Source of the DNA: Commensalibacter melissae
GTDB lineage: Bacteria > Pseudomonadota > Alphaproteobacteria > Acetobacterales > Acetobacteraceae
Direction: 5' to 3'
Assembly: GCF_003691365.1 (NCBI RefSeq)
Contig: NZ_CP033087.1
Location: 1,688,501 to 1,752,500, forward strand
Length of the DNA stretch: 64,000 bases
The translations under genes and the position numbers were made by a program. Of the stretch, positions 6,639 to 17,421 are shown one piece after another. The notes under the pieces are model-generated. The model was not told where the DNA came from, ran no database searches, and saw only the letters and a list, made by a program, of their open reading frames with translations. Position 1 is the stretch's first letter. Each line of letters begins with the position of its first letter.

Positions 6639-7390
6639 CCGTCCATTTTATCGGGGCAGGCCCAGGGGCTGCTGACCTTATAACATTACGTGGGAAAAAG
6701 CTTTTGGAACAATGTCCAGTATGTCTTTACGCCGGATCTATTATTCCTAAAGATATTCTGAAATTTTGCTCTTTTGATACACAATTAATTGATTCGGCCC
6801 CACTAAATTTGGATCAGATTGAAGCTGAATTTGTAAAGGCAAATCAAGCGGGAAAAGATGTTGCCCGTTTACATTCAGGGGATCTCTCTGTTTATAGTGC
6901 TGTTGCCGAACAAATGCGCCGACTTGAAAAACACGCCATTCCCTATACACTTACACCCGGTGTACCCGCTTTTGCAGCCGCTGCTGCAATCATAAAAAAA
7001 GAATTGACTATTCCAACAATAGCACAATCCATTGTTTTAACACGCATTTCTGGACGTGCATCAGTAATGCCAGAAAAAGAAAAATTGGAAACCTATGCAC
7101 AAACTGGCACTACACTGATTATTCATCTCGCCATTCATCGCATTGAAGAAATTGTTCAGCGTTTGGTTCCTTTTTATGGAGAAAATTGTCCAATCGTCAT
7201 CGCTGCGCATGTAAGCTGGCCAAATGAAAAAATTATACAGGGAACATTAGCCACTATTTTAAAAAAAATAAACGCCAATCCAATCCAACGTACTGCGTTA
7301 ATTATGGTTGGTCCTGCTATGGGTAGTAAAAACCATATGGAAAGTGCCCTATATAATGTTAACTATCAACGTCGTTTTAAAAATCAATAA
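6635..7390 (+). CDS. cobM: Precorrin-4 C11-methyltransferase CobM
   Basis: This 251-residue tetrapyrrole methylase adds the C11 methyl group of precorrin-4. Its N-terminal loop FIGAGPGAADLITLRG, the CLYAGSIIPK segment, the LHSGDLSVYSAVAEQMR segment and the TPGVPAFAAAAA stretch are all characteristic of CobM/CbiF. The ATG overlaps the cobE stop by four bases. It is the last gene of the first cob block; an AT-rich gap and the glycan island follow, so this is one boundary of the cob locus. Confidence 0.95.
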   Translation: MTVHFIGAGPGAADLITLRGKKLLEQCPVCLYAGSIIPKDILKFCSFDTQLIDSAPLNLDQIEAEFVKANQAGKDVARLHSGDLSVYSAVAEQMRRLEKHAIPYTLTPGVPAFAAAAAIIKKELTIPTIAQSIVLTRISGRASVMPEKEKLETYAQTGTTLIIHLAIHRIEEIVQRLVPFYGENCPIVIAAHVSWPNEKIIQGTLATILKKINANPIQRTALIMVGPAMGSKNHMESALYNVNYQRRFKNQ

Positions 7391-7414
7391 TATTTATTCT
7401 ATTCAATAAATATT
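7389..7414 (+). terminator. AT-only hairpin after cobM, possible terminator
   Basis: A ten-base perfect inverted repeat (AATATTTATT, 6-base loop, AATAAATATT) begins at the cobM stop and is followed a few bases on by CTTTTT. All pairs are A-T, so the stem is weak and it may only be a chance palindrome in AT-rich DNA. Confidence 0.3.
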
Positions 7415-7947
7415 AAAACCTTTTTCGATCATTTTTCAGTCCTTTGATTTTTATCACGTGTAATTATAAAAAAACAATTCATTCAGAATGAAACCATTTT
7501 TTAAAACATATCACTTACCATTACCAACATTAATTCCAGTTATTGTGAACAGTAAATGCATTAAAAAAATTTTAACAAACCTATTTTCATACAAAAAGTA
7601 ATTTGTGACAAGAAATTGCAAGATTTAACCCAGCAATCTGGATTCATATTACCCCTGAAATCGTATTCAGGAACTAAAAAAAATCATAATAATAAAATAT
7701 TTAATATTATCTCAAACTAACAATATATTTCGTTGAATCACATTCCCATACAATACTTTACGAAAAATTGAGTTAAACACCTTCGATCCTAAAACACTTA
7801 ATCAAAATGCATAACATAAAAAAGGCACGACTAATAACCTTAACACATGTCAAAATTATTTTAATTAATTATTAAGAATTAGGTAAAACAAATATATAAA
7901 ATTTATCTTTACCTATTCTTGAAATTAACTTGATATAAAATTTAGTT
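7391..7947. other. 557-base intergenic stretch at the cob/glycan boundary
   Basis: This stretch lies between the ends of cobM and the convergent glycosyltransferase gene. It is very AT-rich, with many runs of A and T. I see no protein-like reading frame, tRNA or transposase remnant. It marks one edge of the lower-GC island. Confidence 0.6.
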
Positions 7948-9684
7948 CTAAATTTTTACCTTTCTTTTCAATAAAGTATTCCAATATTCTTTAGTGGTTG
8001 TTTTTTTTCTAAATTGCAGCATTTGTTCCCTAAACTTACTTTGTTGCAAAAAGATACATAAATAATTTTTAATAAAAAACATAATATAAAAAATTAAATG
8101 TTTTCTCTCAAAAAAATGTTTCTCACCACATTGTTTATGAAAATCATATACAATTACTTCACGTTTTCTTATAAAATCAGAAGGTCTACGATTAAATCCT
8201 TTTTGTGAAACACCTTGTTCAGAAGGTGAAAGAATAAAATTCAATAAAAATAACAAAATCTTTTTTCTTAACCTGATATGCGTATATTGATTTTCATAAT
8301 AAACAAACCCTTCTACACTACTTTTCTTTTTAACAGAATTATAAACATTGACAATTCTTTGATGATTTTCATATGGATTTGCTTCATATCTACCTGAAAT
8401 AAAATCCTCAACAGCCATCATATTCATTTTTAAGGCTACATAATTCCAAGTCGTAATATTTCTAATGAATTTATTACGAAAAAAACGCATGCCAAATTCG
8501 ATTAAATTTTGAGGCGTAGAAAATGAAAAAATCAATACATTGCGCAGGAGATAGTAATCTTCCATAATTTCAGAGTATTTTTTGTAAAAAGGCTCATGCC
8601 AAACACAAATTCCAGGCAATGACAATATTTTAGCATTACAACGTCGAGAAAATTCGATATCATCACCACGGATAAAAATTGGCAACGGCATTCCATAATC
8701 TTTTAAATGCTGGGTTGAAAATGCACAAAACCACCAACCAGCAACACCATTGACCAATCCACAAGTCGCGTTTTGTAAAATTTCCCCATACAAACGCAGG
8801 TCTTGACAATGACCCTGATGATGCATGCCATAATTGTCAATGATTGTATTTCTTTCATATTGCAACCATTTTTCATCTAAAGAAAACATGGAGCCAGAAA
8901 GAAAAATATTCTTATATTTACTGGCTATAAAACTATAAAAAGCATAAGTTCTAAATACGGACTCAAAATTTAACTCGATATCATCATCCATGAATATAAT
9001 ATGAGTACAGCCCATCTCAGAGGCCATTAATGCAGCTCTTGTAAAACCGCCCGCCCCACCATAATTATCGCTATTTTCCAAATGAATTATATCATTATTT
9101 TTTATATTTATTTTTTTTCCATTATTAGAAATAAAAATCAAACTATTTATTTGTGAACTAACAATACCTTCATGAATTTTCTTAACATTTTTTGTTATAT
9201 AATTTTCTCTATTATATGTACAAAAACAACATCCTAATTTTACATCCTGTGTCGGTTCATCTTTGGTATAAAAAAATATTTTTTTTAAAACAACAACATC
9301 TTCACATGAAGCCAATCGACAATAAACAGCATCATATTTTGACCAGTTTTCAATTGTTAAATTCACTTCATTAGTAAAATAATGCGATAGTAAGTTAACT
9401 TCATAAGAATGTGCCAATTCTTGTTTAATCCCATATACTTCTATCTTTGCTTTACCTTTTACAACCACCCCAACATTTAAATCTTTAATATTCGTATACT
9501 TAACATATTGTTTGGAAGGAAAGATATTATAATAAGTGTTAAAAGACACATGTGAAAAAGCATCAATATAAATATTACCATCCTGTATAACAACATCTTT
9601 TGGGCATCTGAAAAAAATTTCATTTTCTGCAACATATGGAGTTTCTACGCCCCAAGAAAAATTATGTAATATGTGCTTTTCCAT
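7948..9684 (-). CDS. GlfT2-like family 2 glycosyltransferase
   Basis: The 578-residue protein has an N-terminal beta-sandwich-like part (residues 1-145) and a GT-A catalytic domain starting at VKLGCCFCTYNRE (about 148). It then shows SDNYGGAGGFTRA (205-217), the metal-binding FMDDDIEL (231-238), GWWFCAF (316-322), the GDD motif (340-342) and WHEPF with His363. This order matches bacterial galactofuranosyltransferases of the GlfT2 type, which extend glycans processively with UDP-galactofuranose; the donor here is not known. There is no signal peptide, so it is cytoplasmic or peripheral. A good AAAGGAA ribosome site precedes the ATG. It is a distant paralogue of the gene at 15652-17421, and base composition is more AT-rich than the cob genes. 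Confidence 0.8.
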   Translation of the reverse strand: MEKHILHNFSWGVETPYVAENEIFFRCPKDVVIQDGNIYIDAFSHVSFNTYYNIFPSKQYVKYTNIKDLNVGVVVKGKAKIEVYGIKQELAHSYEVNLLSHYFTNEVNLTIENWSKYDAVYCRLASCEDVVVLKKIFFYTKDEPTQDVKLGCCFCTYNRENYITKNVKKIHEGIVSSQINSLIFISNNGKKINIKNNDIIHLENSDNYGGAGGFTRAALMASEMGCTHIIFMDDDIELNFESVFRTYAFYSFIASKYKNIFLSGSMFSLDEKWLQYERNTIIDNYGMHHQGHCQDLRLYGEILQNATCGLVNGVAGWWFCAFSTQHLKDYGMPLPIFIRGDDIEFSRRCNAKILSLPGICVWHEPFYKKYSEIMEDYYLLRNVLIFSFSTPQNLIEFGMRFFRNKFIRNITTWNYVALKMNMMAVEDFISGRYEANPYENHQRIVNVYNSVKKKSSVEGFVYYENQYTHIRLRKKILLFLLNFILSPSEQGVSQKGFNRRPSDFIRKREVIVYDFHKQCGEKHFFERKHLIFYIMFFIKNYLCIFLQQSKFREQMLQFRKKTTTKEYWNTLLKRKVKI

Positions 9685-9828
9685 TAAAATTGTTCCTTTC
9701 TTTTTAAATCATAATTATTTAAAAAAATATCAAAAATCAATTTACTTTCTTATAAGAATAATTTTAAGCTCAATATAAAAATTTATTGTTTTTATATTTT
9801 TAAACACATTATTAGGGTTAATATAGTA

Positions 9829-10779
9829 ATGATTTATGTTTCTTTGCTCGTTCATGAAAATATTGATGTAATCATTAATCAAATTGATAATTTAAACAAA
9901 TTTTATTCTAACTGCATCATAATCATACATATTTCCAAAATTTCAAAAATAACAACAAATAATTTAAATGAAAAAATAAAAAATTTAAAAATCAAAAATG
10001 TTATTATCAATAATAACCAAACTGACACATCATGGGGAAATGTAATAGCAGGGCATATTGCCAATATTGAGTATATTAAAAATATGAAAGAGAGAGGCAT
10101 TATTGTATTTCATGCATCAAATGATATGCTTATTTCCAATAAAGTTGAAAATTACGTTTCTACCACAAAATCTGCCTATAATTTAAGATTGGTTTTACCC
10201 GGATCTTATTGGTGGCCTGCACATATGGTTTTACAGGATAAGATTTTCACTAACTTTGTTAACTCTTTTAATTCAGGCGCTATCTTTGCATCACAAATAG
10301 AAGGATCCTTTTATGAAACAGATGTTTTATTCGAAATTATAACCCTTATTAACAAACACGATTTGCTGGATACTAACTATCATTACACTAAAGAAGAAAT
10401 ATTTTTTTCAACGCTAGCTCATTGCATAGGATATCAACCCAATGGATTACCCTATATTTTTTCAGAAGTTCATGATTTTGATAGGATACTATGGAGTAAA
10501 TTTACAAAAATAGACAATAACAAATTTCTTAATCCATTCATTAAGAATAAATTAAAAAAAATCTTAAATAATAAACTGTTTAAAAAAGGTGATTACAAAA
10601 TTAATATTAAAACGGTTCTATCTCTCCTAAATAAAGATACAGATTTCCTTCAAAAAAAAGAATACCTTAATGATGGCAATTATATTTGGCAAATTTATGA
10701 TAAAAACCATTTATATGGGGTTAAAAGAATTAATAGAAATATTTGTGATCCTGTCAGGAAGTTTATTTCTAATTTGTAA
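9829..10779 (+). CDS. Putative GT14-like (core-2/I-branching type) glycosyltransferase
   Basis: This 316-residue protein is very rich in Asn, Ile and Lys and has no close family that I recognise outright. It shows SWGNVIAGH (68-76), ASNDM (96-100) and YTKEEIFFSTL (186-196). These resemble the GT14 pattern of WGG, then S-G-x-D, then an acidic residue before FFxT. The same landmarks occur in the next gene (WGN, ASNS, LEE), and both share SQIEG/TQIEG, so the two are related. The proposed role is a glycosyltransferase in surface-glycan synthesis. No signal peptide is seen. The assignment rests on motifs read by eye and needs profile searching. Confidence 0.5.
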   Translation: MIYVSLLVHENIDVIINQIDNLNKFYSNCIIIIHISKISKITTNNLNEKIKNLKIKNVIINNNQTDTSWGNVIAGHIANIEYIKNMKERGIIVFHASNDMLISNKVENYVSTTKSAYNLRLVLPGSYWWPAHMVLQDKIFTNFVNSFNSGAIFASQIEGSFYETDVLFEIITLINKHDLLDTNYHYTKEEIFFSTLAHCIGYQPNGLPYIFSEVHDFDRILWSKFTKIDNNKFLNPFIKNKLKKILNNKLFKKGDYKINIKTVLSLLNKDTDFLQKKEYLNDGNYIWQIYDKNHLYGVKRINRNICDPVRKFISNL

Positions 10780-10968
10780 TTAGATTACAATCTATCATTA
10801 AATCAACAGTGAATTTGTTTATGATCAATTAATTATTTTTTTTGATATAACTTTTATTTAATATCAATTAAGGTTAATGTATCGAAATATAAATCTTCAT
10901 ATATGTTCAAAATATTAAATTTTCATAAGATTTCTACATCAGTTTAACAATTAAAGACATTAAAAATA

Positions 10969-12849
10969 ATGATGCAAAAAATATGGTTTCCTTCTAAAGT
11001 TTTTGACTTAGGAAAAGAAAATACAATTGATACACTTCATATCAATAACTTTAATAACAATGATATCAGTATTCCTTTATTTTCAATATTCTTATCTAAC
11101 AATAACCAGGATTGGGTATGTTATTATACACAACCCAGTCATCATTGGGATAATCCAACCGAATTTGATATTCATTTAAGTAAAAAGGTTCAAGCACAGT
11201 ATATTAAATTTCAATTAAATTCTAAAGGCAATTTAGATAAATTGGAAATAACACTGGACAATAACCACATCGACAATAATGAAGAAATAATAAATATCTC
11301 CTCTTTTATAGAAAAAACAAAAAAAGAGGCAGCTAATAGCAGGGTAGTTATTAGTACATTATTCAATGAATCTGATGATTATTTAATGTTATATATTAAT
11401 AACTTTCTTTTTTTTACACCAGAAAATGTTATTTTAATATTAAATTTTCCACATAATAGACCCATTCCTAAGGCTGCTTTAACAATTAGTGACCGTATTA
11501 TCATCATTAATGGAGGGTTTAAAAGACACAAATGGGGAAATACTCTATTATTAGGACATCTTGAAACGTTGGATTACGCAAAAAATAATCTTGTTTTTGA
11601 CTACTTTTGTACAATGGCTTCAAATAGTCTTTTTGTAAGGCACCTTACAATATCCTCCATACTAAATCAATTGAATCAAAAAGCTTTAACTCCAATTGCC
11701 TCACAAAGATCTTACGATTATGATGTTGATCTTGACGCTGAAATCACTACTAATCATGGAACTTGGATGTGGCATCACTATAAATCTCTTCCCCAATTAA
11801 AAGAACATATCATTAATGAAATCGGACTTACCCGTATTTCAGCAACCCAAATCGAGGGATTATTTGCTCATAAAAAGGATTGGTTTTTAATTCTTGAAAA
11901 AGTTGAAGAGATAAAAAACTTGGCACCTTTTTTATCCTCTCATTTTTTCGTTGCACTTGAAGAAGTCATTCCTATTTCCATTTTCAACCAGTTCGGCTCT
12001 GGATATTATACTCATATCTGTTTTATGTTATGGACAAAACCTAACTATTTAATAGAAATCAAGGAAATTTTATCTATAGGATCACAATTACCAGATCATA
12101 TTTCATCCATTAAATGGTTTCCGAGAGATTGTTATGCATCAACAACCTTGGCTGTTTGTACATCATGGGGAAGACAATTAATTGGACTAGAAAAAAAAGA
12201 AAGATTGCCTAACAAATTACAAGCTTCAATCATCCTTAATGATTTTTTGCAAGCCATTAAATCCAGAATACAGACATTGCCACTGACTGAAAAATGGAAA
12301 CTGGATAAAAAAAATTCAGCTTTAGATTTTCACTGGAATTATAATAATTATCCAGTGGAACGACAAAGATTTTATTTAGATATAGGTCAGTCCTTCACAG
12401 ATTCAGAAGATCCAGAAACAGGTCCTGCACACTTATTTTTTGAAAATACAAATCACCTTGTTGATTTATCCCTTTTTCTCATCGAGAAAAAAAATACCTG
12501 TAATATTTTACGCTATTTTTGTCTCTCCTTTGATGCCCAGAAAAAAACTTTGGTTTCTAATATTTCCGAATTGGAGGGATATTTGTATTTATCATCACAG
12601 CAAAAGAATAAATCAATAAAAATCTCAATCGATAAAAATAAGATGAATAACTATCATCATTATCAAAAATTATTTGAACGTTTTGTAGAACATACAAATA
12701 TTGAAGGGCCTCATAATTATTTTGTAAGAAATTGGGATTTAAAGGAAGAAAATGAAAATAAAATAGATTACTATTTTCTTAATTGCCAATGTATTGGTAC
12801 CCCAATTATTTCAAACAATTTAATTGAAGTTGAAATGTCAATTTTTTAA
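10969..12849 (+). CDS. Multidomain GT14-like protein with discoidin-like N-terminal domain
   Basis: A 626-residue protein with three parts. Residues 1-98 look like an F5/8-type C (discoidin) carbohydrate-binding sandwich (FSIFLSNNNQDW, then QYIKFQL). Residues about 125-430 match the preceding gene: KWGNTLLLGHLETL (188-201), DYFCTMASNSLF (211-222), ATQIEGLF (292-299) and FVALEEV (327-333). Residues 440-626 form a further beta-rich region of unknown kind. I infer a glycosyltransferase that carries its own glycan-binding modules. It is separated from the upstream gene by 189 AT-rich bases and lies in the same direction as the sugar-activation genes. No signal peptide or membrane segment is seen. 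Function remains unproven. Confidence 0.5.
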   Translation: MMQKIWFPSKVFDLGKENTIDTLHINNFNNNDISIPLFSIFLSNNNQDWVCYYTQPSHHWDNPTEFDIHLSKKVQAQYIKFQLNSKGNLDKLEITLDNNHIDNNEEIINISSFIEKTKKEAANSRVVISTLFNESDDYLMLYINNFLFFTPENVILILNFPHNRPIPKAALTISDRIIIINGGFKRHKWGNTLLLGHLETLDYAKNNLVFDYFCTMASNSLFVRHLTISSILNQLNQKALTPIASQRSYDYDVDLDAEITTNHGTWMWHHYKSLPQLKEHIINEIGLTRISATQIEGLFAHKKDWFLILEKVEEIKNLAPFLSSHFFVALEEVIPISIFNQFGSGYYTHICFMLWTKPNYLIEIKEILSIGSQLPDHISSIKWFPRDCYASTTLAVCTSWGRQLIGLEKKERLPNKLQASIILNDFLQAIKSRIQTLPLTEKWKLDKKNSALDFHWNYNNYPVERQRFYLDIGQSFTDSEDPETGPAHLFFENTNHLVDLSLFLIEKKNTCNILRYFCLSFDAQKKTLVSNISELEGYLYLSSQQKNKSIKISIDKNKMNNYHHYQKLFERFVEHTNIEGPHNYFVRNWDLKEENENKIDYYFLNCQCIGTPIISNNLIEVEMSIF

Positions 12850-12896
12850 CATTTATATATAATTTTATACATATTAATAATGAATTGAATATTTAT

Positions 12897-13271
12897 ATGA
12901 AACGTTTGGTTTTCGACCTTGATGATACCTTAACTATTAATACTTCGGGTGTTTCTTATGCTGACAAACTCCCGAACCTACCAGTTATTCAAAAATTAAG
13001 GGAATACAAGAAACAAGGATTTGAAATTATTATTCAAACAGCCAGAAATATGTATACTTATAACGGTGATATTGGAAAGATTAATGCCAATACTTTACCA
13101 ATTATCATTGAATGGTTAAAAAAACATGAAATTCCATATGATGAAATTTATGTAGGAAAACCATGGTGTGGAAAAGAGGGATTTTATATTGATGATCGTG
13201 CCATACGACCGTCTGAATTCATTTCAATGTCTTTTGATGAAATTACAAAATTAATTGAAACAAAAAAATGA
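12897..13271 (+). CDS. HAD-superfamily phosphatase, capsule-biosynthesis type
   Basis: The 124-residue protein has the HAD motif I FDLDDTL at residues 5-11, motif II-like QTARNM, a conserved Lys in GKPWCGKEG, and the acidic motif FYIDDRAIRP. It lacks a large cap, like small HAD proteins encoded in capsule and lipooligosaccharide loci. The likely role is removing phosphate from a sugar or polyol phosphate before activation. The ATG at 12897 gives the family start MKRLVFDLDD; an in-frame TTG at 12885 is less likely. It overlaps the next gene by four bases (ATGA), so the two are coupled. Confidence 0.78.
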   Translation: MKRLVFDLDDTLTINTSGVSYADKLPNLPVIQKLREYKKQGFEIIIQTARNMYTYNGDIGKINANTLPIIIEWLKKHEIPYDEIYVGKPWCGKEGFYIDDRAIRPSEFISMSFDEITKLIETKK

Positions 13272-14890
13272 CTTCATCTTGCGTAAATATTATCACTTCT
13301 GCCGCATATGTGAATCAAGAACTGGCAGCCGAATTTGGTTTAATTCCCCCTTCCTTTCTACCTTTGGGAACGGGAAGATTATTTGAAATACAGGTTAAAA
13401 ATTTTAGAAAAAACTTAATTGAAAATTCACCAATCTACCTGACTTTGCCTGATAGCTTTATTGTTACTCCCTATGATAAACATACTTTAAAAGAAAAAGG
13501 TGTAGTAATCGTTTCTGTCCCGGATGACATGTCTTTAGGAAATTCCCTAGTATATACGATTAATGTCATCAATGCATACAATTCGAACATACGTATTTTA
13601 CACGGTGATACAATTCTTGATGATATTCCTCAAGAAATGGATATTATTGCAAGTTATCCTGATGGTGACGATTATTCTTGGGCAGTTATCAATCAAGCTG
13701 ATGATAAATATATTAAAAATCTTGAAACTATCAAATCAACCAAAGATGAAAATAATTACCGTCCAGTAGCTTGTGGCTATTTTTCTTTCTCAAAGGGGAA
13801 TGAACTGATCAAGTCCTTATGTCAAGCACGTGGAAATTTTATTGAGGGAATAAACTTATATAACAAACATCAGCCCTTAAAAATAAACGCTATTAAAAAC
13901 TGGTATGACTTTGGACATATTCAGACTTATTTTCAATCAAGACGTTTGGTTACAACTGCAAGGGCCTTTAATTCACTCCAAATTACCTCAAATACCGTTA
14001 AAAAAATTTCTTCTGATTCTTTTAAGATGCTTGCTGAAGCAGAGTGGTTGGAATCAACTCCACCAAATCTAAAACCCTTCACCGCTCGTCTTTTCGAATA
14101 CGGACAAGATAATGACAAAACATTCTATTCCACTGAATATCAATACACACCAACGCTAGCTGAATTATTCGTATTTTCAGATATTGGAAAAGCTACATGG
14201 AACAAAATTCTGGCCTCTTGTACTGATTTCCTGAATTTATGCGCAAAACAAAAAGGTAAAAAAAAACGGGACGATTACACTGCACATTTAGTAGGTAACA
14301 AAACCTTTGAACGTTTGAAACTCTTTTCAAATCAAACAGGTTTTAATATCATGCATGACCTCGTTTTCAATGGTAATAAATATCCATCATTATTAACTAT
14401 TGCAAATAATTTGTCAGATTTTATTACAAAAAATCCTGAAGAATTATGTACAATCATGCATGGCGATTTTTGTTTCAGTAACATTTTATATAATTCACGC
14501 AATCGTCGTATTACAGTGATTGATCCAAGAGGATATGTATTTCCCCATATAAAGGAAAATTATGGTGATTTACGTTATGATATGGCCAAGCTATCCCATT
14601 CAATTAACGGGTTATATGACTTTATCATAACAGGACGCTATAATCTTATTAACAATAATCAATATGATTTCGAACTAACATTTGATTTATCATCTTCCCA
14701 TAAATGGCTACAGACATATTTTAATAAAATAAATATTGCAAATATTACGGTTTCAAGCAAAGAAATCCAGGCTATGACCATAGCATTATTTTTATCGATG
14801 TTACCTTTACATGCTGATCGCCCTGATCGACAAAAAGCATTTATTGCAAATGCCTTACGTTTATATTCGATATTTGAAAGAAAAGATTAA
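13268..14890 (+). CDS. Fused nucleotidyltransferase-like / APH-type kinase
   Basis: A 540-residue two-domain protein. Residues 1-230 resemble a sugar nucleotidyltransferase: LPLGTGRLFEIQ near residue 28, HGDTILDD near 113, DGDDYSWAVI near 131. Residues 240-530 are an aminoglycoside phosphotransferase/choline kinase-like domain with the catalytic HGDFCFSN (His398, Asp400, Asn405) and metal-binding IDPRG (Asp419). Such fusions could phosphorylate and then nucleotide-activate a small alcohol or sugar for glycan decoration. The substrate cannot be read from sequence; choline-like, ethanolamine-like or sugar substrates are all possible. Its TAA overlaps the start of the next gene (TAATG). It lies in the HAD-NTase/kinase-NTase operon. 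Confidence 0.72.
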   Translation: MTSSCVNIITSAAYVNQELAAEFGLIPPSFLPLGTGRLFEIQVKNFRKNLIENSPIYLTLPDSFIVTPYDKHTLKEKGVVIVSVPDDMSLGNSLVYTINVINAYNSNIRILHGDTILDDIPQEMDIIASYPDGDDYSWAVINQADDKYIKNLETIKSTKDENNYRPVACGYFSFSKGNELIKSLCQARGNFIEGINLYNKHQPLKINAIKNWYDFGHIQTYFQSRRLVTTARAFNSLQITSNTVKKISSDSFKMLAEAEWLESTPPNLKPFTARLFEYGQDNDKTFYSTEYQYTPTLAELFVFSDIGKATWNKILASCTDFLNLCAKQKGKKKRDDYTAHLVGNKTFERLKLFSNQTGFNIMHDLVFNGNKYPSLLTIANNLSDFITKNPEELCTIMHGDFCFSNILYNSRNRRITVIDPRGYVFPHIKENYGDLRYDMAKLSHSINGLYDFIITGRYNLINNNQYDFELTFDLSSSHKWLQTYFNKINIANITVSSKEIQAMTIALFLSMLPLHADRPDRQKAFIANALRLYSIFERKD

Positions 14891-15615
14891 TGATAGTTAT
14901 TCCAATGGCGGGACTGTCCAGCCGTTTTTCAAAAGCTGGATATACACAACCTAAATACATGTTGCCTTTAAATGGAAAAACAGTTTTTACCCATTCAGTT
15001 GAAAGTTTCAAAGCATATTTCCAAGATACTCCATTTCTGTTCATTGCCCGTTCAATTATGAATACGGAAAATTTTATACAAACTGAAATTGACAAGCTTG
15101 GTATCAAAAAAGCAAATATAGTCATTCTAGATCATCCTACCGCTGGACAGGCAGAAACTGTAGAATATGGAATTCACAAAGCCGGACTTGAAAATAACAT
15201 GGCACTGACAATATTCAATATTGATACCTTTAGAAAGGATTTTCATTTTCCCCAACAAGAATGGTTTAAACATTCTGACGGATATCTAGAAGTATTTAAG
15301 GGTAATGGTGAAAATTGGTCTTACGTGGAACCAGATTCTGAAAGTCAAGAGCCTATTGCGCTAAGAACCGCAGAAAAAAAACCAATATCCGATTTATGTT
15401 GTAACGGTCTTTATCACTTCAAGAAATCTGGAGATTTCCTATATGCTCTTCAACAAGAAAGAAAAACGCCTTCTACATCCGAATTATATATAGCGCCCTT
15501 ATATAATTATTTAATTCAAAATAATAAAAAAATTCACTATAAACTTGTTAATAAAGATTGCATAACATTCTGTGGGGTTCCCGCGGAATATGAAGCTTTA
15601 TGCAAAAACTCTTAG
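14890..15615 (+). CDS. Sugar-phosphate nucleotidyltransferase-like protein
   Basis: The 241-residue protein has the classic nucleotidyltransferase N-terminus: IPMAGLSSRFSKAGYTQPKY, then MLPLNGKTVFTHSVESF. It also has an FNIDTF motif at the position of the usual catalytic Asp and a KDCITFCGVPAEYEAL C-terminal end as seen in glucose-1-phosphate-type transferases. It probably joins a phosphorylated sugar or alcohol to CTP, UTP or a similar nucleotide. It starts within the stop of the upstream kinase-fusion gene and ends 36 bases before the convergent GlfT2-like gene. The exact substrate is unknown. Confidence 0.75.
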   Translation: MIVIPMAGLSSRFSKAGYTQPKYMLPLNGKTVFTHSVESFKAYFQDTPFLFIARSIMNTENFIQTEIDKLGIKKANIVILDHPTAGQAETVEYGIHKAGLENNMALTIFNIDTFRKDFHFPQQEWFKHSDGYLEVFKGNGENWSYVEPDSESQEPIALRTAEKKPISDLCCNGLYHFKKSGDFLYALQQERKTPSTSELYIAPLYNYLIQNNKKIHYKLVNKDCITFCGVPAEYEALCKNS

Positions 15616-15651
15616 CTTTGATATAAAACTGGATTATGTCCAGTTAACCAA

Positions 15652-17421
15652 TCATCTCTTGAATTGATAAACCTTTCTCCAAAATTTTTCTGTCATGATT
15701 TTTGGAACCACTTGTCTATATTCTCTTTTTAATTTTTTGAATCTGGCAGCAAATTGAATTATCAATTTCAAACCTAAAAACAATTCGGAAAAAAATTTTT
15801 TTTTATTATATATCGCTACATAACCTTTATTATATTCACTTGAATAATATAATATATTCCTCTCTAGAAATATTTCATATGGGAAATGTTTTATTTCCTT
15901 TTTACTCAGAATAAGTCTGTCTCTAATAAAAAAATCAGGAAGAAAAAAACCATTGAAGGTCATAATAATAATGATTTTTTTCAATATGGGAAAACGAACT
16001 TGTCTGATACTTGGTTTTAGTTGATCTATATCAACATCATCCATTTTCTCTGCCGACAATACATTCGAAATGACAGGATATATATCCGTTAAGGATAAAT
16101 AGCGTGTCCAGAATTCTGGACCTCGCATAACATGTTGCAAAGCAATGCTAGTAGCTCGGGCAGAAGCATAACGATAGGTTAAAATGGAAATAAATATCCA
16201 ACGTATATAACGCCAGACATAAATCCATAAAGAACAATCTGAATATATCAAAGCCAAAGCAAAATTGGCCCTTACGCTTAAATATCGGGGTAAGGGGCCA
16301 TCCTTGTAACGGAAATCCTCTCCAAAAACACATATGCCATTCATAGTAATGATATTGAAATGATTCATTAATCCGAAAAGCATATCATCTCCCTTAACAA
16401 AAAAAGGAAATGGAAAATAATTTACATCTTCAATCTTAAAGGCAAAATGCCACCAGGCACCATATTCAATTTTCTTTTTATCTAAATCAGTCGCTATAAT
16501 AGTTTCAAATTTCGATATATCAAGACCACAATATAGCTGTATCAAGCTTAAGGGCTTATACTGGGCACCCTTCTCATGAATGATTGTCGATTCTTTTTCA
16601 TATAACATGGTTCCAGCTATTGCCAATCGCTCCACGACTGAATATTGCAATAATCTGAAAGTCTTGATTATAGATTCAATTTCACAACTGGCATCATCAT
16701 CCATAAAAAGACAATGTGTATAATGATGATCTTTCAAATACAGTAATCCGCGTGTAAATCCCCCGGATCCTCCATAATTGAGATTAGAAATAACAATCGC
16801 CTCCCCTGCCTCTTCTGAAGAAACATCTCGAGAATTATCTACAATAATAAGATCAATGTTGTTTTTAAAAGATTCATTGGATAAAAGCTGCGTTTCTATC
16901 CGCCGAATGGCAGGGATCAGATACTTTTTACGATTATAGTGCGTAATAACTATTCCTAATTTTACATAGTTAAAAGGATCTGTTTTGGTGCAAAAAGAAC
17001 CACCCTGTATGAAACATTCGCCCTTTGTATCTATTGTAAAATGAAGAATGCCTTGTTTTTTCAATAAAAATGAGCAATCAATGCAAAAACAATCTTGATC
17101 TTTATTTAAATAAACTTGTTTTTCAATAACACGCTTTGATGAAGAAGGCTGGTAATTTTTGTCTGTCAGCCAGAACCTCAATACAAATTCACCTTTTCCC
17201 TGTAATTGAAAATGAAGATCTTTAAGTTGGCAATATTTACGCCATGTATTTAAGGAAAAATAATTGAAATATGTTCCAAAAGAAATTCTGCTATTTTTTT
17301 CAAGAATAATTCCATCATTTTCCGATAACGGTTGTATACCGCCTTTTTGAATATCAAAATATAATTTTTCTGAAATATCTGATAAATGATTATTAAAAAG
17401 CAGATTTTGAAGAACATGCAT
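15652..17421 (-). CDS. GlfT2-like family 2 glycosyltransferase, second copy
   Basis: The 589-residue protein has the same layout as the gene at 7948-9684: an N-terminal sandwich (SFGTYFNYF, 47-55), then VKLGIVITHYNRKKY (153-167), NLNYGGSGGFTRG (213-225), FMDDDASC (239-246), YGAWWHFAF (320-328) and the GDD motif (344-346). At the place of WHEPF in the first copy it reads FGEDF (366-370), so the His that helps bind metal in GlfT2 seems to be replaced. It may use another donor, or bind metal differently. Hydrophobic segments near 390-420 could sit on the membrane. Sequence identity to the first copy is modest, so the two probably make different linkages. Confidence 0.78.
   Translation of the reverse strand: MHVLQNLLFNNHLSDISEKLYFDIQKGGIQPLSENDGIILEKNSRISFGTYFNYFSLNTWRKYCQLKDLHFQLQGKGEFVLRFWLTDKNYQPSSSKRVIEKQVYLNKDQDCFCIDCSFLLKKQGILHFTIDTKGECFIQGGSFCTKTDPFNYVKLGIVITHYNRKKYLIPAIRRIETQLLSNESFKNNIDLIIVDNSRDVSSEEAGEAIVISNLNYGGSGGFTRGLLYLKDHHYTHCLFMDDDASCEIESIIKTFRLLQYSVVERLAIAGTMLYEKESTIIHEKGAQYKPLSLIQLYCGLDISKFETIIATDLDKKKIEYGAWWHFAFKIEDVNYFPFPFFVKGDDMLFGLMNHFNIITMNGICVFGEDFRYKDGPLPRYLSVRANFALALIYSDCSLWIYVWRYIRWIFISILTYRYASARATSIALQHVMRGPEFWTRYLSLTDIYPVISNVLSAEKMDDVDIDQLKPSIRQVRFPILKKIIIIMTFNGFFLPDFFIRDRLILSKKEIKHFPYEIFLERNILYYSSEYNKGYVAIYNKKKFFSELFLGLKLIIQFAARFKKLKREYRQVVPKIMTEKFWRKVYQFKR

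Follow-up and report, generated by a model that had tools for sequence, protein, structure and literature searches.

A six-gene insertion in a cobalamin biosynthesis cluster

The cobalamin biosynthesis cluster of Commensalibacter melissae is interrupted by an AT-rich block, and the question it raises is what two of its genes, here called P1 and P2, encode and which substrate their products might use. We analyzed the locus within the window, a contiguous stretch of 64,000 nucleotides. Our reading, to which we give a probability of roughly 0.6, is that P1 and P2 are GT14-related GT-A glycosyltransferases, probably inverting and metal independent, that most likely use the activated product of the operon directly downstream of them. 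The block occupies window positions 7390 to 15650 in the order GTa-P1-P2-HAD-NTK-NT, with a G+C content of 24 to 32% inside a cluster of 38 to 43%. Its first gene, GTa (7948..9684, minus strand), encodes a GlfT2-like galactofuranosyltransferase-type GT2 protein of 578 aa (Pfam Glft2_N, E 9e-8). P1 (9829..10779) and P2 (10969..12849) follow on the plus strand and encode proteins of 316 aa, probably cytosolic, and 626 aa, respectively. Downstream on the same strand lie a HAD phosphatase of the EcbF/BcbF capsule family (12885..13271; NCBIfam TIGR01689, 193 bits against a cut-off of 162), a fusion termed NTK (13268..14890) with a nucleotidyltransferase-like N-terminal half, assigned by reading the sequence, and an APH/EcKL-like kinase C-terminal half whose match is weak (E 0.002), and the sugar nucleotidyltransferase NT (14890..15615; PDB 4evw, E 2e-75).

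The nearest related species (G110) lacks all six genes and has the order cobM-GTb-cbiD, and other congeners have cobM-cbiD; the block was therefore acquired, or lost, as one module. GTb, a second GlfT2-like GT2 protein (15652..17421, minus strand), occurs in G110 already and thus lies outside the insertion. We note that two diverged GlfT2-like genes (7948-9684 and 15652-17421) thereby bracket the P1-P2-operon genes from the opposite strand. A UDP-galactopyranose mutase gene (glf) is present in the genome about 800 kb away, and together with the two GlfT2-like neighbors it would fit a galactofuranose-containing glycan.

P1 and P2 are homologous and share an ordered set of motifs

A sequence-only reading of this region had proposed that the two proteins are related and carry WGN, ASND/ASNS, (S/T)QIEG and an EE pair in the same order, as a distant bacterial branch of GT14. 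All four motifs are present in that order in both ORFs. In P1 they are W69-G70-N71 (W69-G70 at 10033..10038), A96-S97-N98-D99 (10114..10125), S155-Q156-I157-E158-G159 (10291..10305) and E189-E190 within KEEIFFSTL (10393..10398); in P2 they are W189-G190-N191, A217-S218-N219-S220, T293-Q294-I295-E296-G297 and E331-E332 (11959..11964). Relatedness was borne out by BLASTP (E 5e-4, 21% identity), by a P1-family profile that contained no P2 sequence and whose sole other match in the whole 2.02-Mb genome was P2 (E 1e-13), and by profile-profile comparison of the two families (98.9%, E 3e-17, 244 columns). Judged by these sequence comparisons, P1 and P2 are homologous, with a likeness beyond chance. 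Among 21 proteins from the two families, E10, W128, G159, E189 and E190 (P1 numbering) are invariant, and N21, G70, H76, S97, N98, Q156 and E158 are nearly so. Neither family has a conserved DXD; its position is taken by ASND, SSNE, SPAN or ASN[SGA].

Profile and fold comparisons place the pair nearest to GT14

For comparison with GT14 we assembled a profile from eleven bacterial PF02485 proteins, which as a positive control recovered the sequences of XylT1 (E 2e-15) and C2GnT-L (E 6e-7), aligning its DE-FFQT with PAESFFHT of XylT1 and PDEFLWAT of C2GnT. The P1-family profile matched this profile at 92 to 93% (E 3e-7 to 6e-7, 193 to 196 columns, score 56.8), against scores of at most 21.6 for 60 column shuffles, 16.6 for the reversed profile and at most 28.2 (best 5%) for seven other families (WavE, HYP531, HYP257, GlfT2-like, NT, HAD and NTK). 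The alignment pairs VHE with CHK/VH, WG with WG, ASND with SGDC, SQIEG with GSQWW and KEEIFFSTL with PDETFFQTL. W69-G70 is therefore the counterpart of the GT14 WG(G) motif, ASND stands at the SGxD position, and E190 aligns with the Glu of PDETFFQT, itself aligned with XylT1 and C2GnT-L, in line with the catalytic Glu that GT14 enzymes carry in [PD/PA]-E-x-x-[FW]-x-T. The proposed profile-level link to GT14 held for P1 (93%, E 3e-7) and failed for P2 taken alone (0.8%, not significant); the tie of P2 to GT14 is thus weaker than that of P1 and runs through P1 and through the fold.

The AlphaFold2 alignment input omitted one row from the plasmid collection. In the confident P2 model (pLDDT 83.8, pTM 0.81) a beta-sandwich (F5/8C) at the N terminus is followed by the GT-A domain and then by a beta-domain at the C terminus; for P1 the model is good over residues 1 to 200, with pLDDT below 50 beyond. 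In Foldseek searches of the PDB, ranks 1 to 13 for P1 were all GT14 structures (C2GnT-L 3otk/2gam; XylT1 6ej7-6eje and 6foa; E 7e-7 to 5e-5), followed by generic GT-A enzymes, and rank 1 for P2 was XylT1 6eje (E 2e-7), with an alignment that takes in the C-terminal domain as well as the GT-A domain. TM-scores were modest, at 0.40 to 0.46 for the GT14 matches of P1 and 0.31 for P2, and a range of 0.3 to 0.46 leaves family-level GT14 membership unproven by fold. Structure prediction thus gave a GT-A fold with GT14 enzymes nearest for both proteins, and neither a fold unlike GT-A/GT14 nor a significant match to an unrelated family appeared. Together, the P1 profile match, the fold ranks and the position of the Glu support the GT14-like reading.

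We consider it quite improbable that P1 and P2 belong to another GT-A lineage, GT2/GlfT2-like or unnamed, with a likeness to GT14 that is generic to GT-A enzymes. Such an assignment could appeal to the galactofuranosyltransferases GlfT2 and GfsA, which come next after XylT1 among the fold matches of P2, and to the nonsignificant match of the P2 profile to GT14, but the P1 profile matches GT14 at E 3e-7 and GlfT2-like and WavE proteins not at all, its first 13 fold ranks are GT14, and a conserved DXD is missing from both families. GlfT2 and GfsA are DXD-type enzymes that have a GT-A fold, as P1 and P2 do, but show no profile similarity to either. No Pfam GT2 or Glft2 model matched P1 or P2, and hhalign gave 0.1%. 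Profile comparison excluded P1 and P2 as GlfT2-, WavE- or HYP531-like proteins.

P1 and P2 have in common with C2GnT-L and XylT1 the GT-A fold, the WG, a small Ser-rich motif replacing DXD, a GS/SQ that precedes the acid and a Glu with FF-x-T after it, and their conserved C-terminal basic residues are candidate equivalents of those in GT14; XylT1 and P2 both have a beta-domain after the GT-A domain. The bacterial PF02485 proteins (loci L058-L067, from one family of the phylum) show the same motif order and carry SGDC or SGSC, GSQWWCL and PDE-FFQT. On the other side, identity to GT14 is about 18%, the SND and SQIEG variants are unseen in the GT14 set used, and the N-terminal F5/8 type C domain is a feature of P2. 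Because hmmscan for PF02485 returned no match up to E 1 in P1, P2 or their relatives, we describe the pair as GT14-like and not formally as GT14. We found no PF02485 protein in the genome that encodes P1 and P2.

Relatives and annotation status

P1 is rare. Among 299 genomes of the order it occurs in the same species and as three weak relatives only, and a P1-family profile run on 399 genomes sampled from the phylum found no P1 outside the species. A plasmid of Caballeronia grimmiae and a Flavobacteriales MAG each encode a better relative (33% identity for both), the MAG locus being the single P1 locus added by a scan of genome contigs. P2 has relatives in 14 of those 299 genomes, where tandem paralogues are frequent and an accompanying P1 is usually missing. 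No model in Pfam, NCBIfam or PHROGs matches the catalytic domain of either protein, no Pfam or NCBIfam model matches those of their relatives, and single-sequence phmmer searches against PDB, Pfam, NCBIfam and PHROGs returned nothing for P1 and just the F5/8C domain for P2. Searching the PDB with either family profile by hmmsearch gave chance matches only, and a search of phages gave no match. Every annotated homologue is a "hypothetical protein." The suggestion of a new family is accurate with respect to Pfam, NCBIfam and RefSeq annotation, and these probable surface-glycan transferases are invisible to annotation as it stands.

Predicted catalysis and domain roles

GT14 enzymes are inverting, need no metal and take the sugar from UDP-GlcNAc, UDP-GlcA or UDP-Xyl. 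They use a Glu as base and have no DXD, with basic residues replacing the metal, and in C2GnT-L R378 and K401 contact the UDP beta-phosphate (PMC7185993, PMC3961637, PMC7948508). Given the missing DXD, the invariant EE aligned on the GT14 base and the invariant Lys and Arg residues, inverting, metal-independent transfer is the best inference, and by analogy P1 and P2 are probably enzymes of this type. The second Glu of the pair (E190 in P1, E332 in P2) would act as the base, and conserved Lys/Arg residues toward the C terminus of the catalytic domain would hold the diphosphate in place of a DXD-bound metal. Candidates in P1 are K299 and R300 of VKR-x-x-R (K299-R300 at 10723..10728) and R310, all invariant in its family; the P2 counterpart of VKR-x-x-R contains the invariant K382 and R386 of K382-W383-F384-P385-R386 (12112..12126). 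These residues either lie beyond the region aligned with GT14 or are modelled with low confidence, and since P1 is poorly modelled past residue 200 the candidate site has no structural placement.

P2 is a three-domain protein, with an F5/8 type C (CBM32-like) domain at residues 12 to 87 (11002..11229; PF00754, E 4e-7) that is found in 13 of 22 P2 relatives as well, a GT-A domain at residues 122 to 412 (11332..12204) supported by the P2-family alignment, the model and the profile-profile comparison, and a C-terminal beta-rich domain at residues 453 to 625 (12325..12843) defined by DSSP on the model and lying within the XylT1 alignment. We hypothesize that P1 and P2 act in the cytosol, extending a nascent surface glycan by a residue, and that the two accessory domains of P2 probably hold the acceptor chain. 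These two binding-type domains, and the missing Asp of the P1 ASND motif, might instead suggest that one of the two proteins, with P2 the likeliest candidate, is a noncatalytic or acceptor-organizing partner of the other. We regard this as very improbable, given that E331-E332, Q-I-E-G, K382 and R386 are invariant and WG nearly so across 22 P2 relatives, and that most relatives carry P2 without a P1.

The HAD-NTK-NT operon and the likely donor

In the reading that we favor, the donor is most likely a nucleotide-activated compound made by the HAD-NTK-NT operon directly downstream of P1-P2, in which the kinase would phosphorylate, the HAD phosphatase would remove another phosphate and the nucleotidyltransferase domains would activate the product. 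The three genes occur together in nearly every examined contig that spans all of them, and they form one run, HAD-NTK-NT-P1, with P1 as the fourth gene, on the Caballeronia plasmid as well as in the Flavobacteriales MAG. P2 relatives adjoin the operon in L031, L041 and L046 (=L152), and in L035 the distance between them is about 3 kb. By genome, the operon (scored as NTK) is present in 13 of the 14 that carry P2 against 34 of 299 overall (hypergeometric p 6e-13), the exception being G251; by genus the figures are 6/6 against 16/65 (p 1e-4), a count that is the only handling of relatedness applied. We also note that the operon, at window positions 12885-15615 here, occurs in L030, L047-L052 and L116-L154, from Pseudomonadota and a Flavobacteriales MAG.

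This association runs strongly from P2 to the operon and not from the operon to P2, as the operon is found with WavE, HYP531-family or other transferases where P1 and P2 are absent, and they are therefore not its only partners. The same operon core is present in capsule loci of E. coli, Phaeobacter and Citrobacter plasmids, and as a variant in Legionella, where its neighbors are WavE or other unnamed transferases in place of P1 and P2. The frequency of such arrangements, the P2 copies far from the operon in four genomes (G019, G029, G091 and G093) and the fact that, to our knowledge, all characterized GT14 donors are UDP-sugars would be explained if P1 and P2 were GT14-like but used ordinary UDP-sugars while another enzyme of the locus transferred the operon product, the genes sharing a polysaccharide island and nothing more. 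We judge this unlikely, since close relatives of P1 adjoin the operon in two further distant lineages and 13 of the 14 genomes with P2 have it, whether or not the two are linked.

Use of the operon product by P1 and P2 thus remains our preferred reading. A more specific version of it, in which the pair founds a new GT14-branch family whose members transfer a nucleotide-activated residue, as yet undescribed, that HAD-NTK-NT would supply, is one we hold tentatively, as possible but doubtful. As speculation, such a residue could be a ketose, with fructose 2,6-bisphosphate converted to the 2-phosphate and then to NDP-fructose, a route that would suit the logic of kinase, phosphatase and activation. 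Our literature search on the product of EcbF/BcbF-type operons, including fructose 2-phosphate and CDP- or GDP-fructose, returned nothing on point, and no paper on NDP-fructose as a donor was found. Campylobacter jejuni HS1 has a fructose transferase, and the HAD-NTK-NT operon is absent from it as far as its paper lists genes. The tie between these transferases and the operon, in Pseudomonadota and Bacteroidota, offers a concrete route to an otherwise undescribed surface-sugar pathway, and the pair would show the bacterial distribution of the animal-type GT14 catalytic solution, with a Glu base and basic residues in place of a metal.

Other transferase-like genes at related loci

The "hypothetical" gene beside the operon in E. 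coli, Phaeobacter and Citrobacter was considered as a P2 homologue and rejected. Another unnamed transferase-like family of about 530 to 560 aa, with the motif R-x-RPD, accompanies the operon in capsule loci (L047:9918-11606, L048:14360-15955 and L049:17812-19419) and has at most a weak Pfam match to DUF7796.

A separate, mostly plasmid-borne branch of the P1 family occurs in Acetobacter and Rhizobiaceae (L042:9257-10144, L043:9087-9974, L171:7989-8876, L172:8010-8858 and L173:7992-8840). A sugar transferase on conjugative plasmids deserves separate attention: the Acetobacter members adjoin type IVB conjugation genes (DotH/IcmK and DotG/TrbI), four of the plasmid-branch loci have an NT-family nucleotidyltransferase within about 6 kb, and two have an annotated HAD phosphatase nearby.
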